The notes under the pieces were generated by a model that was not told where the DNA came from, made no database searches, and saw only the letters and a list, made by a program, of their open reading frames with translations. Shown piece by piece: positions 5,556 to 12,444 of a stretch of 18,007 nucleotides of DNA (position 1 is the first letter of the stretch; each line of letters opens with the position of its first letter). The translations under genes were made by a program, and so were the position numbers. Origin of the DNA: Microbacteriaceae bacterium (GTDB taxonomy: Bacteria > Actinomycetota > Actinomycetes > Actinomycetales > Microbacteriaceae); NCBI GenBank assembly GCA_026785785.1, contig JAJAZI010000085.1:1-18007 (forward strand). Direction: 5' to 3'.

Positions 5556-6875
5556 ATGAGTACTTCCACGTCTACACCGGTCAAGACCAACCCGAGATCG
5601 CGGGTCATCTTCGCGAGTCTCATCGGAACCTCGATCGAGTTCTACGACTTCTACGTGTACGCGACGGCGGCGGTGCTCGTGTTCCCCGCCCTGTTCTTCC
5701 CGGGAGACGACCCCACTTTGTCGCTGCTGAAGTCGTTCGCGGCCTTCGGCGCCGCGTTCGTCGCCCGGCCGATCGGCTCGATCGTGTTCGGGCACTTCGG
5801 CGACCGCATCGGCCGCAAGGGCACTCTCGTCGCCTCGCTGCTCACGATGGGCGTCGCAACGGTGCTGATCGGATGCCTCCCCACGGCGCTCACCCCCGGG
5901 TGGGAGATCCTCGCGCCAACGCTGCTCGTGCTCATGCGGTTCGCCCAGGGCCTCGGGCTCGGCGGCGAGTGGAGCGGGGCGGCGCTGCTCGCGACCGAGA
6001 ACGCCCCCGCCGGTCGGCGCGCGATCTACGGCACCTTCCCGCAGCTCGGCGCCCCGATCGGATTCATCGTCGCCAACGGCGTCTTCCTGCTGCTCGCCAC
6101 GACCATGTCGCCGGAGACGTTCTTCGCCTGGGGCTGGCGGGTGCCGTTCCTCGCGAGCGCCGTCCTCGTCATCATCGGCCTTTACGTGCGGTTCAAGCTG
6201 ATCGAGACGCCCTCGTTCCAGAAGGCCGTGGCGACGGGCGAGGTCGTCAAGGTCCCGCTCGCGCGGGTGTTCCGGTCGAACTGGCGCGAGCTCATCCTCG
6301 GCACGTTCATCATGCTCGCGACCTACACGCTCTTCTACCTGATGACCACCTACACGCTCACCTACGGCACGACGCCGGTCGACGCCCCCGTTGCTGGCCT
6401 CGGCTTCGAGCGCAACACCTTCCTCGTCATGCTCATCATCGGCGTAGTGTTCTTCGGCATCTTCACCCTCGTGTCCGGTCCGCTCGCCGAGAGATTCGGC
6501 CGTCGCGCTCACCTGATCGTGACGACGGTCGCGATCATCGTGTTCGGGTTCTTGTTCGTGCCGCTGTTCGCCGCCGGCACGGTGGGGGTGTACGCGCTTC
6601 TGATCATCGGCTTCACGCTGATGGGGCTGACCTTCGGTCCGATGGGCGCCCTGCTGCCCGAGCTGTTCCCGACAAACGTGCGCTACACCGGGTCGGCGAT
6701 CAGCTACAACGTCGCATCCATCCTCGGTGCGGCCGTCGCCCCGTTCATCGCGGTGGCCCTGTGGGGCGCTGCCGGCGGCAGCCCCGTGCTTGTCGGCGTG
6801 TATCTGAGCTCGATGGGCGCAATCACCCTCGTGGCGCTGCTGCTGAGCAAGGAGACGCGCGACGTCGACTACTGA
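5556..6875 (+). CDS. MFS transporter, metabolite:H+ symporter (MHS) type
   Basis: This is a 439-residue inner-membrane transporter with about 12 hydrophobic segments. It has the MHS signature start IGTSIEFYDFYVYATAAVL, the loop-2 motif GHFGDRIGRKGTL, and RFAQGLGLGGEWSGAALL in TM4, all typical of the ProP/ShiA/KgtP-like group that takes up organic acids or osmolytes with protons. The substrate cannot be read from the sequence. The ATG at 5556 is preferred over the in-frame ATG at 5541 because GGAG (5545-5548) sits 7 bases before it. It lies 64 bp after the small ORF in the direction of the rib operon and may be co-transcribed with it. That context makes flavin or precursor transport conceivable, but the family is not a known riboflavin carrier. 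Confidence 0.88.
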   Translation: MSTSTSTPVKTNPRSRVIFASLIGTSIEFYDFYVYATAAVLVFPALFFPGDDPTLSLLKSFAAFGAAFVARPIGSIVFGHFGDRIGRKGTLVASLLTMGVATVLIGCLPTALTPGWEILAPTLLVLMRFAQGLGLGGEWSGAALLATENAPAGRRAIYGTFPQLGAPIGFIVANGVFLLLATTMSPETFFAWGWRVPFLASAVLVIIGLYVRFKLIETPSFQKAVATGEVVKVPLARVFRSNWRELILGTFIMLATYTLFYLMTTYTLTYGTTPVDAPVAGLGFERNTFLVMLIIGVVFFGIFTLVSGPLAERFGRRAHLIVTTVAIIVFGFLFVPLFAAGTVGVYALLIIGFTLMGLTFGPMGALLPELFPTNVRYTGSAISYNVASILGAAVAPFIAVALWGAAGGSPVLVGVYLSSMGAITLVALLLSKETRDVDY

Positions 6876-6893
6876 CTTTCATCATTCAGGAGT
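6876..6893 (+). repeat. 3'-end repeat copy A (sense orientation, directly after the MFS stop)
   Basis: CTTTCATCATTCAGGAGT starts at the base after the TGA. It differs from the consensus CTTTCATTATTCAGGAGT at one position. Its AT-richer make-up stands out from the surrounding DNA. Confidence 0.85.
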
Positions 6894-6905
6894 GGCAGGG
6901 CATCC

Positions 6906-6927
6906 GATGCTGCCGACTCGCAGCATC
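6906..6927 (+). terminator. 8-bp perfect stem-loop downstream of the MFS gene
   Basis: GATGCTGC (6906-6913) and GCAGCATC (6920-6927) pair around CGACTC. The hairpin lies 30 bases after the MFS stop in a convergent intergenic region. No T tract follows, as is frequent in GC-rich actinobacteria, so termination here is plausible but unproven. The stem is symmetric and could serve either strand. Confidence 0.5.
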
Positions 6928-6977
6928 CCCCCGAATATGGCTCCGGAGGCTACTGGGATAGGCCACTTTGACGCCCA

Positions 6978-7064
6978 GACTCCTGAATAATGGAAGCCAC
7001 CCAGCAGCCAGACTCCTGAATAGTGAAAGCCCCCACCGGGCCAGACTCCTGAATAATGAAAGCC
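6978..7064 (-). repeat. 3'-end repeat copies B, C, D in a regular 33-bp array
   Basis: Three 21-bp copies at 6978-6998, 7011-7031 and 7044-7064 read GACTCCTGAATAATGAAAGC(C) on the plus strand with one difference each in B and C. On the minus strand they carry the core CTTTCATTATTCAGGAGT. They are spaced exactly 33 bp apart, with two unrelated 12-nt spacers. On the minus strand, copy D starts 13 bases after the permease stop codon. Confidence 0.9.
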
Positions 7065-7077
7065 AGAAGCCCGGGCG

Positions 7078-7905
7078 TCAGTCGAGGAAGAGCTTCTTCA
7101 GGCGCGAGGTCGTGAAGACGAGGCCGATGGCGATCATGACGAGGTAGTAGAGCACGTGACCGAGCAGCGCCATGCTGAGCGCCCCCGTAGTCAGGCCGCG
7201 GATGAGCTCGACGCCATGCCAGAGCGGGAGTGCCTGCACGATCCACTGGATCGGCTCGGGGTAGACCGACAGTGGGTAGAAGGTGGCCGAGAACAAGAAC
7301 ATCGGCAGCATCACGAAGTTGATCCAGTCCATTTGCTGGAACGTCGTGAGGTAGCTCGTCACCGCCATGCCGAGGCTCGCGAAGCCGAACGCGATGAGCA
7401 CAACGGCGGGCAGCGCGAGGATTGCGGTCCACGACAGGTTGAGCCCGAGCGACTGCATGACGATGAGAAACCCGAGCGCGTACAGCACCCCGCGCAGCAG
7501 GGCCAGCGCGATCTCGCCTAGGGCGACATCGAGCGGGCCGAGCGAGGTCGTCAGCATCCCCTCGTACAGCTTCGCGTAGTTCATCTTGAAGAACACGTTC
7601 CAGGTCGAGTCGTAGATCGCACCGTTCATCGCCGAGACGGCGAGCAGCGCCGGCGCGATGAACGCGGCGTACGACACCTCCTGCCCGGTTGTCGTCACGA
7701 CGGTGCCGACGAGGGCGCCGAGCCCGATCCCCATCGAGAGCAAATAGAAGACCGGCTCAAAGAACCCGCTGACGACGATCGCCACGTTCGAGCTGCGGGT
7801 GGCGAGCAGCCCGCGGCTCATCACCGCGCTGGAGTTGCGGGCATAGACGGCACCGAGGAAGCGGTTTCTGGCTGGCCCGATCGGCCTCGTCGGGGCAAAG
7901 GTCAT
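7078..7905 (-). CDS. ABC-2 type permease, NodJ/DrrB-like (second subunit)
   Basis: This 275-residue integral membrane protein has about six hydrophobic segments. It shows the family's conserved C-terminal stretch FSATFYPLSVYPEPIQWIVQ followed by LPLWHGVELIRGL. It ends in a basic cytoplasmic tail (SRLKKLFLD). It is the second permease of a three-gene exporter. Its ATG overlaps the stop of the first permease as ATGA, with GAGG 8 bases upstream of the start. The open frame continues much further upstream only as a shadow of the neighbouring genes. NodIJ/DrrAB-type systems export drugs, polyketides, lipids or saccharides, and the substrate here is unknown. The two permeases probably form a heterodimer. 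Confidence 0.9.
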   Translation of the reverse strand: MTFAPTRPIGPARNRFLGAVYARNSSAVMSRGLLATRSSNVAIVVSGFFEPVFYLLSMGIGLGALVGTVVTTTGQEVSYAAFIAPALLAVSAMNGAIYDSTWNVFFKMNYAKLYEGMLTTSLGPLDVALGEIALALLRGVLYALGFLIVMQSLGLNLSWTAILALPAVVLIAFGFASLGMAVTSYLTTFQQMDWINFVMLPMFLFSATFYPLSVYPEPIQWIVQALPLWHGVELIRGLTTGALSMALLGHVLYYLVMIAIGLVFTTSRLKKLFLD

Positions 7906-8749
7906 TTGTTGAGCCTCGCCGTGAAGACGCGCTGCGACATGCGCCAGCAGACGACGATGATCACCGCGGGGTAGAGCACGTGCACCGCGGTGAGCCAGGC
8001 CGGCTCTGCGAGCCCGTAGCTGATCACCCGGCCGAGCTCGGTGCCGTGCCAGAGCGGCGAGATCCAGCCGATCCACTGCAGGTAGATGGGCAGCTGGCTG
8101 AGTGGGAAGAAGGTGCCGGAGAACAGCAGCATCGGCGTGATCCCGAAGCGCATGATGAGCGCCATCTGCCCCTTGTCCTGCTCGATCCGCGCCGTGTACG
8201 CCATGATCGCGAGGCCGACCGACATGGCCGCGAGCACCGCGATGGGGATCATCAAAATGCCGACGGCGGAGGGCACCGCCCCGAACAGCACCATCGCGAT
8301 GAAGTAGATCACGCACGTCGGCACCATGCGGGCGAGCACCGAGATGAGGATGCCGTTGGTGATCTGGCCGCCGGTGATGGGCGCCGCGTTCATGCCGAAG
8401 AAGATCGGGTTCCACTTGAAGCCGAGCATGATCGGGTAGGTGAACTCCTCCGCCGATACCATCACGGCCGCGAGCCCGAGCAGGGCGGGCGCGACGAAGA
8501 CGAGGTAGCTGACGCCCTGCACGGCGTCGTCGCCGAGGTTCGCGTCGACGAGCGTCGCGAGCCCGATGCCGAGCGCGAAGAGGTAGATGAGCGGGTTGCC
8601 GATGCTCGTCGCAAGGATCGTCTGCCCGTAGGAGCGCATGCTCCGGATGCGGTGCTCGGCCACGTACCACGACCCGTACCGCCGCGGCCGCACCCCGCCG
8701 GCGAGGGCGCGCTCGCGCCACGCGGCATCCGACAGCACCTCCTGCCCGC

Positions 8750-8753
<4 letters not shown>
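7902..8753 (-). CDS. ABC-2 type permease, NodJ/DrrB-like (first subunit)
   Basis: This is a 283-residue membrane protein. A cytoplasmic N-terminal part of about 40 residues (RYGSWYVAEHRIRSMRSYGQ) is followed by about six hydrophobic segments and the conserved FSGTFFPLSQLPIYLQWIGW then ISPLWHGTELGR near the C-terminus. It is clearly homologous to the next gene in layout and motif, suggesting an old duplication that gave two different halves of one channel. Both junctions in this operon are 4-nt ATGA overlaps (8750-8753 with the ATPase, 7902-7905 with the second permease), so the three subunits are probably made in linked amounts. Confidence 0.9.
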
Positions 8754-9700
<947 letters not shown>

Positions 9701-9772
9701 CGGCCCGGCCGCGGCATGCCCTCAGCGAACGTCGCAGGGAGCACTCCGCGCGCGACGATACGCTTTCTTACG
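9701..9772. promoter_or_regulatory. 72-bp divergent promoter region between two ABC exporters
   Basis: The starts of the two divergent ABC systems are only 72 bases apart. On the plus strand GATACGCT (9758-9765) is a possible -10 region very close to the ATG at 9773, which would make that mRNA nearly leaderless. This fits the missing Shine-Dalgarno sequence. I see no clear operator palindrome or regulator gene next to it. Confidence 0.4.
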
Positions 9773-11695
9773 ATGAGCACACCACGCAGCACGCCGCCTC
9801 GAGTTCGCAGCGGCTTCGGCAGGCCGGTTGATGACACCGGTCCCCGCGCCACCTTCAGCCAGCTGATGCCGTACCTCCTCGAGCACCGCCGGGTGCTCGG
9901 GTTCGTCATCGTGCTCAGCGTGCTCGGCGCCGCCGCGTCGCTCGCGCAGCCGCTGCTCGTCAGCAACGTCATCTCGGTCGTCGAGGCGGGAGACTCCCTG
10001 CAGGGCCTCGTCTGGCTGCTCGTGGGCCTCGTCGTCGCATCCGGCCTCATCAGCGGGTTCCAGCACTACCTCTTGCAGCGCACCGGCGAGGGGGTCGTGC
10101 TCTCGAGCCGCCGCCGCCTCGTCACCCGGATGCTGAACCTCCCGATCAGCGAGTTCGATCTGCGCCGCACCGGCGACCTCGTCTCCCGCGTCGGCTCCGA
10201 CACCACGCTGCTGCGCGCGGTGCTCACCCAGGGGCTCGTCGAGGCTATCGGCGGCTCGCTCACCTTCATCGGGGCGCTCATCGCGATGCTCATCATCGAC
10301 CCGGTGCTGCTCGGGCTGACCGTTCTCGTGATCGCCATCTCGGTGGTCACGGTCGTGACCCTCAGCCGCCGCATCCGTGTCGCGAGCCGCAAGGCGCAGG
10401 AGAAGGTCGGCGACCTCGCCGCCGCGGTCGAGCGGTCGATCAGCGCCGTGCGCACGATTCGCGCCTCCAACGCCGCGGACCGCGAGATCGCCGCCGTGCA
10501 CAAGGATGCCGAGGGCGCCTGGCGCATGGGCATCAGCGTCGCGAAGATCTCCGCTCTCGTCGTGCCGATCGCCGGCATCGCCCTGCAGGTGTCGTTCCTC
10601 GTCGTGCTGGGCGTCGGCGGCTACCGCGTCGCGAGCGGCGCCCTGACCGTCGCCGACCTCGTCGCGTTCATCCTGTTCCTCTTCCTCATGATCATGCCGC
10701 TCGGCCAGGCCTTCGGCGCGATCACCGCGGTCAACCAGGCGCTCGGCGCGCTCGGCCGCATCCAGGAGATCATCGGGCTGCCGACCGAGACCGAGCGCGA
10801 CGCCGAGATCGCGGCGACCGCCGAGGCGTCGATCGAGTCGGACGACGCGATCAGCTTCGAGAACGTGGAGTTCCGGTACAGCGAGCTGCCGCCAGAGGAG
10901 TCCGACGAAGCGATCGTCGTCACCGACGTGAGCCCGATGGCCGAGCTCGTCGGGGTGCCCGCTGGCGCGCGCGCAGTGGAGGCCGAGGTCGCGGTCGAGG
11001 CCGGGCCGCGCGACCGCACGGTGCTGCGCGGGGTGTCGTTCAGCGCGCCGAAGGGCAAGCGGACCGCGCTCGTCGGGCCGTCCGGGGCCGGCAAGAGCAC
11101 GATCCTTGCCCTGATCGAGCGGTTCTACGACCCGAGCGCCGGAGTGATCCGGCTCGGCGGCGTCGACCTGCGCGCCCTCGACCGGGAGGCCCTCCGCGCC
11201 CAGATCGGCTATGTGGAGCAGGATGCCCCGGTGCTCGCGGGCACGCTGCGCGAGAACCTCGTGCTCGGCGCCCCCGGCGCGAATGACGACGACTGCATCC
11301 GGGTGCTCCGGGACGTCAACCTCACCGAGGTGCTCGAGCGCAATCCGCTCGGCCTCGGCGCGCCGGTCGGTGAAAACGGCGTGATGCTCTCCGGCGGCGA
11401 GCGCCAGCGCCTGGCGATCGCCCGCACGCTGCTCGCGGCCCCGCCGATCCTGCTGCTCGACGAGTCGACGTCGTCGCTCGACGGGCTCAACGAGCAGATG
11501 CTGCGCGAGGCGATCGACGCGGTCGCTGAGAACCGCACGCTCATTGTCATCGCGCACCGGCTGTCGACCGTTGTCGACTCCGATCAGATCGTCGTGCTCG
11601 ACCACGGCCTGGTGGTGGGCGTCGGCACGCACTCCGAGCTCGTCGCATCCACCCCGCTGTACAAGGAGCTCGCGAAGCACCAGCTGTTGGTGTAG
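9773..11695 (+). CDS. ABC half-exporter (fused membrane and ATPase domains) with an NBD insertion
   Basis: This is a 640-residue multidrug/lipid-type exporter half that should work as a dimer. The membrane domain (about 30-330) has six hydrophobic spans, including VLGFVIVLSVLGAAASLAQP at the start. The ATPase domain has A-loop Y369, Walker A GPSGAGKST (435-443), signature LSGGERQR (539-546), Walker B D563-E564 and H595 in IAHRLST, all intact. Between A-loop Y369 and VLRGVSF (417) there are 47 residues where about 10 are usual, an acidic, low-complexity insertion. The ATG at 9773 is preferred. An in-frame ATG at 9716 would add 19 residues with no better ribosome site, and the long open frame further upstream is antisense to the divergent ATPase gene. 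Confidence 0.92.
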   Translation: MSTPRSTPPRVRSGFGRPVDDTGPRATFSQLMPYLLEHRRVLGFVIVLSVLGAAASLAQPLLVSNVISVVEAGDSLQGLVWLLVGLVVASGLISGFQHYLLQRTGEGVVLSSRRRLVTRMLNLPISEFDLRRTGDLVSRVGSDTTLLRAVLTQGLVEAIGGSLTFIGALIAMLIIDPVLLGLTVLVIAISVVTVVTLSRRIRVASRKAQEKVGDLAAAVERSISAVRTIRASNAADREIAAVHKDAEGAWRMGISVAKISALVVPIAGIALQVSFLVVLGVGGYRVASGALTVADLVAFILFLFLMIMPLGQAFGAITAVNQALGALGRIQEIIGLPTETERDAEIAATAEASIESDDAISFENVEFRYSELPPEESDEAIVVTDVSPMAELVGVPAGARAVEAEVAVEAGPRDRTVLRGVSFSAPKGKRTALVGPSGAGKSTILALIERFYDPSAGVIRLGGVDLRALDREALRAQIGYVEQDAPVLAGTLRENLVLGAPGANDDDCIRVLRDVNLTEVLERNPLGLGAPVGENGVMLSGGERQRLAIARTLLAAPPILLLDESTSSLDGLNEQMLREAIDAVAENRTLIVIAHRLSTVVDSDQIVVLDHGLVVGVGTHSELVASTPLYKELAKHQLLV

Positions 11696-11706
11696 CCGGC
11701 TCCGGT

Positions 11707-11744
11707 CTTTCATTATTCAGGAGTAGCTTTCATTATTCAGGACT
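11707..11744 (+). repeat. 3'-end repeat copies E and F (tandem, sense orientation after the ABC gene)
   Basis: CTTTCATTATTCAGGAGT at 11707-11724 is a perfect consensus copy starting 11 bases after the ABC exporter stop. A second copy at 11727-11744 ends GGACT instead of GGAGT. The spacing between copies is 20 bp. Confidence 0.9.
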
Positions 11745-11748
11745 GGCC

Positions 11749-11782
11749 GGGCCGCCGGACGAATCATCCGTGGGGGGCGGCC
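11749..11782 (+). terminator. GC-rich hairpin in the second convergent intergenic region
   Basis: GGCCGCC (11750-11756) can pair with GGCGGCC (11776-11782), with a smaller CGGA/TCCG stem inside that competes for one base. A separate short palindrome, AGTGCG-T-CGCACT, follows at 11784-11796. There is no T tract. It sits between repeat copies E/F and G, like the hairpin between copies A and B in the first region. Confidence 0.4.
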
Positions 11783-11859
11783 TAGTGCGTCGCACTCAGC
11801 CCGGGATTGGGTCCACCTTTCCGCACTATCCACGGTCGCTCGGCAGCCGCGCCCGCCAG

Positions 11860-11879
11860 CCTCCTGAATAATGAAAGCC
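11860..11879 (-). repeat. 3'-end repeat copy G (sense to the TetR gene)
   Basis: CCTCCTGAATAATGAAAGCC on the plus strand is the consensus in reverse orientation. On the minus strand it starts 16 bases after the TetR stop codon. Copy E can pair with it over 17 uninterrupted bases. Confidence 0.88.
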
Positions 11880-11895: not shown

Positions 11896-12444
11896 CTAGC
11901 CGACAATCTTGTCGATCACGCGGAAGAGCCGCTTGAGCTCGAGGTCGTCCCCGGCGGCATCCGACTCGACAGGCGGCGACCCGGTCGGGAGCCGGAACAG
12001 GGCCTCGTAGTAGAGCCCGTCGCCCATGAGCTTGATGGCCTGGGCGGCGTCGTCGTCGCGCAGGGCCGCGGCGAGGATGGCGAGCCACTGCGCCTCGACC
12101 GCCCCCAGCGTCGCGACGGCCTCGGCATTGCCGCCCTGGTGCAGCCGCGCGACCGCGACGATCGCGCGGTCGAGGGGCGTGCCGCGGTAGCGGGACGAGC
12201 GGATGTAGAAGCGTGCCGGTCCCTCGGCGGCAGAGCGCATGAGGGCCGCGTCGTCGGCCGCGAGGGAGGTGAGGCGCTCGCAGACGCCGTGGGCCAGCAG
12301 GTCCTTGCTCGGGAAGTGGTAGATCAGGCCGCCCTTCGACACGCCCGCCCGCGCCGCGACGGCATCGAGCGTCGCCGCGCGCTCGCCCTCGGTGAGCAGA
12401 AGCTCCTCGAAGGCGTCGAGGATGCGGTCGCGCGAGGATGCCAT
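11896..12444 (-). CDS. TetR-family repressor of the adjacent efflux pump
   Basis: This is a 182-residue regulator. The N-terminal helix-turn-helix is clear: TLDAVAARAGVSKGGLIYHF (about 25-44) followed by SKDLL, the TetR signature. The rest is an all-helical ligand-binding and dimer domain of usual length. The gene is divergent from a DHA2 drug-efflux gene, and a perfect 24-bp palindrome lies between them. By analogy with QacR and TetR arrangements, this protein probably binds that site, represses both genes and lets go when it binds a pump substrate. The ligand is unknown. The ATG at 12444 is the only start that gives a full N-terminal helix. Confidence 0.93.
   Translation of the reverse strand: MASSRDRILDAFEELLLTEGERAATLDAVAARAGVSKGGLIYHFPSKDLLAHGVCERLTSLAADDAALMRSAAEGPARFYIRSSRYRGTPLDRAIVAVARLHQGGNAEAVATLGAVEAQWLAILAAALRDDDAAQAIKLMGDGLYYEALFRLPTGSPPVESDAAGDDLELKRLFRVIDKIVG

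Follow-up and report, generated by a model that had tools for sequence, protein, structure and literature searches.

A short repeated site, present as two clusters in an 18,007-nt window (the whole stretch of DNA analysed) of the Microbacteriaceae bacterium assembly GCA_026785785.1, contig JAJAZI010000085.1, is arranged genome-wide in opposed arrays whose spacings are quantised at about 10.5 bp, one turn of double-stranded DNA. Given this phasing and the slow evolution of the sites relative to their spacers, we favour, with moderate confidence, the reading that the copies are putative duplex-DNA sites of one sequence-specific host protein. The element is best taken as one of mobile origin that is now maintained.

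Helical phasing and conservation of the opposed sites

The genome holding the window (G000, hereafter the own genome; 2.40 Mb, 82% complete; genus label used, Marisediminicola) contained 132 copies of the site with no more than two mismatches (65 forward, 67 reverse), while the reversed control gave none. It was compared with two further Marisediminicola genomes, G084 (one contig, 3,352,609 bases) and M. senii SM7_A14 (G147), and with other genera labelled g81 (holding G080), g76 and g59 (holding G269). A cluster was defined as two or more site copies, lone sites without a neighbour within 260 bp not being counted. The own genome contained at least 36 clusters, two of which are made up by the seven copies in the window; this set is among the matches listed, and clusters with two-mismatch copies alone may be absent from it. 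Two of the 36, L044 and L067, lie on contigs (C19 and C329) whose sequences agree at 97% over the 650 bp that surround the same cluster, reflecting strain variation or draft redundancy.

Each cluster consists of forward copies of CTTTCAYNATTCAGGAG, an unconserved centre and then reverse copies, in a head-to-head layout. The base composition of 160 own copies describes one asymmetric site of 17–18 bp in which no palindrome was seen: its 17 bp comprise CTTTC, A, two loose bases and ATTCAGGAG, usually preceded by a G and followed, in the own genome and G084, by a T, although the matching rule itself accounts for part of the conservation by position. The plus-then-minus order held in 35 of 36 own clusters, one own cluster being a double unit, in 38 of 43 G084 clusters and in 17 of 19 M. 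senii clusters; the five G084 exceptions comprised one cluster cut at the locus end, three halves split by insertion and one plus-minus-plus arrangement. Both strands were present at nearly every cluster in the fetched loci. An apparent strand asymmetry along the G084 chromosome was dropped, as a complete list made with a stricter pattern held 51 forward and 41 reverse copies. Copies on one arm often lay 33–34 bp apart, with spacers alike within an array. Most centres resembled one another no more than shuffled centres did; on average the excess was small.

The distances between the arms of own clusters, measured across the centre, were strongly phased at 10.5 bp (R=0.72, n=37, p ~4e-9), a value reached by 0 of 2000 jittered sets, with R of 0.06–0.29 at periods of 7–9 and 12–14 bp. 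These distances took values of 83, 91–93, 102–104, 108, 112–115, 125, 132–135, 143–147, 166, 177 and 201 bp. Same-strand spacings, each counted once per arm, gave R=0.87 (n=53) and fell at 20–23, 30–34, 42–44, 54–55, 64, 74, 78 and 119 bp. Centre distances behaved likewise in G084 (n=17, R=0.92) and in the named relatives (n=15, R=0.92), the own and G084 sets sharing orthologous clusters, so that a pooled p is overstated. In g76 the centres gave R=0.62 at 10.5 bp (n=16) and a best value of 0.81 at 9.9 bp. Exactly 21 bp separated 50 of 57 same-strand neighbours in G080, and 25 of 26 centre distances in G269 were 58–60 bp, with 12 of its 13 clusters built as plus-minus-plus-minus from pairs at 58–60 bp in units 23–24 bp apart (one gap of 34). 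Quantisation of both kinds of distance at about 10.5 bp points to protein–DNA complexes, in a loop or wrap, rather than to RNA, and the register kept across an unconserved centre suggests duplex DNA bound at each of its ends.

Matching of flanks to G084 loci that carry the site succeeded for at least one flank in 26 of the 36 own clusters and for both flanks in 22, some of the 26 counterparts being split by an IS110-family element. Between G000 and G084, changes at A/T positions affected 51 of 605 site bases (8.4%) and 190 of 769 spacer bases (24.7%; p 8e-16), and changes at G/C positions 31 of 428 (7.2%) and 248 of 1562 (15.9%; p 2e-6), counted over 17 aligned cluster pairs of the 26; the omitted clusters were L042, L043, L044, L048, L050, L060 (mostly lost in G084), L062, L069 and L070 (no anchor). 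A neutral simulation passed through the same detection filter predicted a change of 0.147–0.173, compared with the 0.080 observed. These sequence comparisons show that the sites are under purifying selection and evolve far slower than the spacers. Orthologous clusters differed in copy number, often by whole units. In L048, an own cluster, the left flank of one member of the G084 pair L100/L101 (569 kb) is joined to the right flank of the other (575 kb), reflecting either draft misassembly or a recombination event between two elements that removed the intervening DNA.

In some cases persistence extended beyond the genus. Among cross-genus junctions with both flanking genes conserved, both genomes carried the element at 9, only one at 1 and neither at 15, counts in which the 'both carry' class is favoured by the loci having been fetched for carrying sites. 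Cluster junctions of g81 and g76 matched Marisediminicola cluster junctions in 6 of 53 cases, compared with 0 of 119 other junctions (p 0.0007). The HisS/enolase, PGM/lipoprotein, PcnB/inositol-phosphate synthase and TrkA/ProC junctions, named from translations, carried different dialects of the site in different genera, the dialects of other Microbacteriaceae genera comprising a changed motif, a 21-bp period and fixed 60-bp pairs. Retention of the same junctions with drifting dialects is as expected of binding sites that co-evolve with one trans-acting protein.

The element is patchily distributed. With a loose 15-base pattern, 12 of 398 family genomes held at least six copies (G000, G084, G147, G283, G075, G310, G076, G080, G143, G241, G127 and G269). 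At least one match occurred in 85 of the 398, and the other 73 had one to three, which are probably chance matches. Some sister species in the same genera lacked the element, with one match each in G198 and G243 (sisters of G084) and none in G195 and G281 (sisters of G080). A contig scan for opposed pairs with gaps of 85–115, which may not cover the own genome or records close to it, returned 14 stretches: 10 from M. senii and 4 from metagenome-assembled genomes labelled Microbacteriaceae (2), Micrococcales and Cryobacterium. An order-wide search with gaps of 0–30, covering the compact g81-like form only, found 0 of 396, the own genome also giving 0.

Whole-unit copying and possible mobility

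Three G084 clusters lying within 50 kb of one another (L139, L142 and L143, at 608–658 kb), which form the clearest case of whole-unit copying, and two own clusters (L047 and L061) were 74–80% alike inside the clusters and unrelated outside. Homology thus confined between the outermost sites indicates that the unit was copied as one piece, and at both sets of loci terminal inverted repeats bound a discrete unit, as in miniature inverted-repeat transposable elements (MITEs). Together with the 132 genome-wide copies, this bears out the part of a preliminary description of the window that took the repeat for an amplified, dispersed element.

The copies may therefore be read as a miniature non-autonomous mobile element, similar to a MITE or to a REPIN (a hairpin-forming doublet of repetitive extragenic palindromes), whose transposase or recombinase would synapse the arms on duplex DNA; register would then be kept since DNA below its persistence length synapses only in phase, as proposed for the internal eliminated sequences (IESs) of Paramecium. 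We consider this explanation possible but somewhat unlikely. Whole-unit homology with unrelated flanks, intergenic placement and patchiness among sister species are all consistent with it, as is the length periodicity of about 10 bp published for IESs, which are thought to be excised by a domesticated transposase (PMC3464196). However, no target-site duplication was found in 92 clusters of the own genome, G084 and G147 at k of 2–9, exact direct flanks occurring at 11 of 92 for k=2, 1 of 92 for k=5 and 0 of 92 for k=3, 4 and 6–9, with mean identity not above permuted. No autonomous partner was seen, there being no transposase among the translated genes of the six G080 loci inspected. The REP-associated tyrosine transposase RAYT (Y1_Tnp, PF01797) was found in 0 of 28 genomes and in 5 of 14 control genomes; the genomes lacking it include the single-contig carriers G084, G080, G269 and G127, the own genome being 82% complete. 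Viral contigs yielded 0 such pairs in scans of gaps 1–31, 31–61 and 70–100. Old copies at fixed orthologous places are moreover constrained, and some junctions are common to several genera.

Candidate autonomous versions were rejected. The ~1.5 kb between the arms of L160 and L161 proved to be an IS110-family element cut into the site, and the longer gaps in G080 hold ordinary genes. The IS110-family element (PF01548, PF02371) was present in near-identical form at seven G084 clusters (L160, L161, L141, L075/L094, L087, L088/L137 and L079) in a search of cluster loci only, and none was seen in the fetched own loci. Its left boundary lay directly after CTCCTGA of a minus copy in all seven cases, and the right boundary, seen in five, resumed at CTGAAT. 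The element appears specialised on this repeat.

Gene context and the two window clusters

Searching the window with an 18-mer at up to three mismatches gave seven matches compared with 0.00 expected from 200 shuffles, so the seven core copies of the preliminary description are real; two are exact and five carry one mismatch. The clusters and their flanking genes are as follows.

6876–7062, no strand: cluster 1, one plus copy, centre and three minus copies; orthologous cluster in G084 (L080)
6876–6893, plus: site copy, 1 mismatch (18-mer search)
6894–6978, no strand: unconserved centre of cluster 1, 104 bp from site start to site start
6979–6996, minus: site copy, 1 mismatch (18-mer search)
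7012–7029, minus: site copy, 1 mismatch, 33 bp from its neighbours (18-mer search)
7045–7062, minus: site copy, exact (18-mer search)
11707–11877, no strand: cluster 2, two plus copies, centre and one minus copy; orthologous cluster in G084 (L073)
11707–11724, plus: site copy, exact (18-mer search)
11727–11744, plus: site copy, 1 mismatch, 20 bp after the first plus copy (18-mer search)
11745–11859, no strand: unconserved centre of cluster 2, 134 bp between inner site starts
11860–11877, minus: site copy, 1 mismatch (18-mer search)
5556–6875, plus: major facilitator superfamily (MFS)/sugar transporter gene, flanking (gene call and Pfam)
7078–7905, minus: ABC-2 permease gene, flanking (gene call and Pfam)
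9866–11695, plus: ABC exporter gene, flanking (gene call and Pfam)
11896–12444, minus: TetR-family regulator gene, flanking (gene call and Pfam)

Four of the copy starts given earlier were right, and three minus starts lie one base later than described (6979, 7012 and 7045). The names of the four flanking genes are backed by Pfam; the distances from stop codon to nearest copy stand for the MFS gene (0) and the ABC exporter (11) and become 15 rather than 13 for the permease and 18 rather than 16 for the TetR gene. Elsewhere in the window, a flavin mononucleotide (FMN) riboswitch (75 bits) at 1713–1866 precedes a plus-strand gene run that reads as riboflavin synthesis. Just upstream of it, a 44-bp tandem repeat of 2.4 copies at 1423–1560 contains GAGTTGCGAACTC, and part of this repeat resembles a reversed g59 dialect of the site (TCCTGAGTTGCGAAA).

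Gene orientations were taken from a codon-based gene caller, compared by eye with the reading frames of the window only. Own clusters lay in 17 convergent, 12 tandem, 4 divergent and 3 unclear contexts (of 36), M. senii clusters in 9, 6, 3 and 1 (of 19), and G084 clusters in 22, 11, 1 and 2, the last over 36 of 43 clusters after exclusion of seven IS110-flanked entries. Convergent junctions were enriched both in own loci (16 of 32 cluster junctions compared with 12 of 120 others, p 2e-6) and in G084 without the IS110-flanked entries (21 of 33 compared with 7 of 71, p 3e-8), and in tandem gaps the cluster lay closer to the stop codon upstream of it than to the start codon downstream in 10 of 12 own and 8 of 11 G084 cases. 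The restriction to two convergent junctions described earlier thus holds within the window, whereas copies genome-wide occupy convergent, tandem and divergent gaps. The preference for places just past stop codons is present genome-wide, but no sense-strand preference exists beyond what the head-to-head form gives, and this form is kept whatever the gene orientation (35 of 36). With 16 of 36 own clusters tandem or divergent, a sense-oriented element of the 3′ untranslated region, or a strand-specific signal of each gene, fails as a definition: the data bear out the gene-end preference but not the sense-strand rule.

The barrier role between genes raised in the preliminary description may hold. 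The placement could suit a DNA-level roadblock or insulator, in which RNA polymerase arriving from either side would be halted by the bound arrays and neighbouring genes kept apart. Convergent enrichment, the nearness to stops in tandem junctions and the lack of an intrinsic terminator at the two window clusters speak for it; yet clusters also occur in divergent gaps (4 of 36 own), where there is nothing to terminate, and a roadblock would not need the phased pairing of two arms across a centre, making it an unlikely account of the element.

Opposed copies can pair in one RNA, as the preliminary description held, the predicted folds of both window clusters closing on a 17-bp stem of opposed copies (z −3.9 and −5.2). 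Its statement that the element is not a classical terminator also stands, there being no terminator-like site (GC stem then T run) in either window cluster, with 4 in the window compared with 3.6 by chance; at the Rfam gathering score no match fell at the clusters, the sole match in the window being the FMN riboswitch. Within clusters, outermost opposed pairs were identical at 15.35 of 17 positions compared with 15.34 when permuted (891 of 2000 permutations reaching the observed value), and very small excesses were seen for all opposed pairs (15.00 compared with 14.89; 47 of 2000) and for innermost pairs (14.53 compared with 14.36; 38 of 2000). A role for such a stem, formed in read-through RNA, in transcript termination, processing or protection is highly improbable; it was rejected as the main function despite the strong folds, because quantisation of a single-stranded loop at 10.5 bp has no RNA explanation and the outermost copies are not mutually matched, and there is no terminator tail.

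Proposed mechanism, chromosomal distribution and known systems

If the copies are sites of a host protein, one protomer would read two conserved blocks about one turn apart on the same face of the helix, and protomers would align along each arm, where direct repeats are mostly two to seven helical turns apart. The arms might then meet over the centre to form a small loop or wrap, of mostly 8–14 turns in Marisediminicola and nearly 6 in g59. It is the length of the centre, not its sequence, that is in helical register. We propose that the element lies shortly beyond gene ends because it would not be tolerated within promoters or coding sequence. The unit once spread by copying, and its motif would drift in concert in each lineage as partner and sites co-evolve.

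Several observations weigh against this reading. A protein binding the sites was not found, the predicted RNA stems are strong, and whole-unit copies are also expected of a mobile element. The centres of g81 are not significantly phased (R=0.27, n=35, p 0.08), in a test that kept centre values of 1–2, which are overlapping weak opposite-strand matches. L060 is nearly gone in G084, with one copy left; g59 shares 0 of 20 cluster junctions with Marisediminicola; and the cross-genus counts favour shared junctions through the choice of loci.

We infer that the element most likely acts in chromosome architecture or in insulation, as a fixed nucleoprotein node that in some genera is biased towards the origin half. 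With the origin located by dnaA, the terminus taken as the point opposite, and raw counts of site groups per half, the origin half held 29 of 32 site groups in G080 and 28 of 38 in G084 (both significant) and 6 of 7 in G076 (borderline), leaving 3, 10 and 1 in the terminus half. A further point against the proposal is that no origin bias was seen in G269 (9 of 21, with 12 in the terminus half) or G127 (2 of 8, with 6), which suggests that a chromosome-wide role is not general. Tentatively, and as a rather doubtful extension, the element may belong to a new chromosome-organising system of Actinobacteria, nucleoid-occlusion-like or origin-domain-anchoring, in which a protein would build phased loops at ~30–50 intergenic nodes, at the same junctions over genus-level time, the protein and its 17-bp code co-drifting and the nodes being kept off the terminus in several genera. 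No extra ParB tracked the element: 17 of 18 genomes had a single strong ParB_N match each, whether or not they carry the element, and additional weaker matches in G147, G138, G276 and G075 do not follow it.

A literature search by title or abstract start, with subscription literature mostly outside its scope, returned no paper describing this repeat. The closest known kinds are REPINs, from which the element departs in lacking a palindrome, RAYT and compensation, and nucleoid-occlusion sites, from which it differs in the form of the site and, in one genus, in not avoiding the terminus. Like REPINs and the related bacterial interspersed mosaic elements of REP sequences (REP-BIMEs), the repeat consists of short extragenic sequences in inverted pairs (35 of 36 own clusters), is patchy among relatives, has a poorly conserved spacer of constrained length and is a target of the IS110 family, here at seven G084 clusters and in Pseudomonas putida through ISPpu9, which is described as targeting REPs (PMC8450116). 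Unlike them, the site is not a palindrome, no RAYT is present, the register is that of double-stranded DNA, and an arm often comprises an array of several copies; REPINs have been described as single-strand hairpins in which compensatory changes are common (PMC3116915), whereas here the outermost pairs show no arm matching. The binding sites of Noc and SlmA (NBS and SBS), described as palindromic and as tens of sites under-represented near the terminus (PMC4726725), resemble the element in number, in the use of one motif and in scarcity near the terminus in G084 and G080, but here the sites are asymmetric and stand in phased head-to-head arrays, no additional ParB tracks them, and the terminus is not avoided in G269 and G127. 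Among the literature surveyed, the nearest published parallel to the phasing is the Paramecium IES, in which the distance between two inverted ends also has a periodicity of ~10 bp, read as duplex DNA looping; the same paper reports no conserved motif for excisase binding (PMC3464196). IESs differ in being eukaryotic and excised from genes.

If this reading is true, the working form of a dispersed bacterial element would be readable directly from DNA sequence, and its clusters would amount to a natural test of helical twist, repeated at dozens of loci across several genera. It would set a duplex-DNA mechanism apart from the hairpin mechanism proposed for REPINs and predicts a DNA-binding protein that should be easily baited, and sister species with and without the system would make the cellular role of such repeats directly testable.

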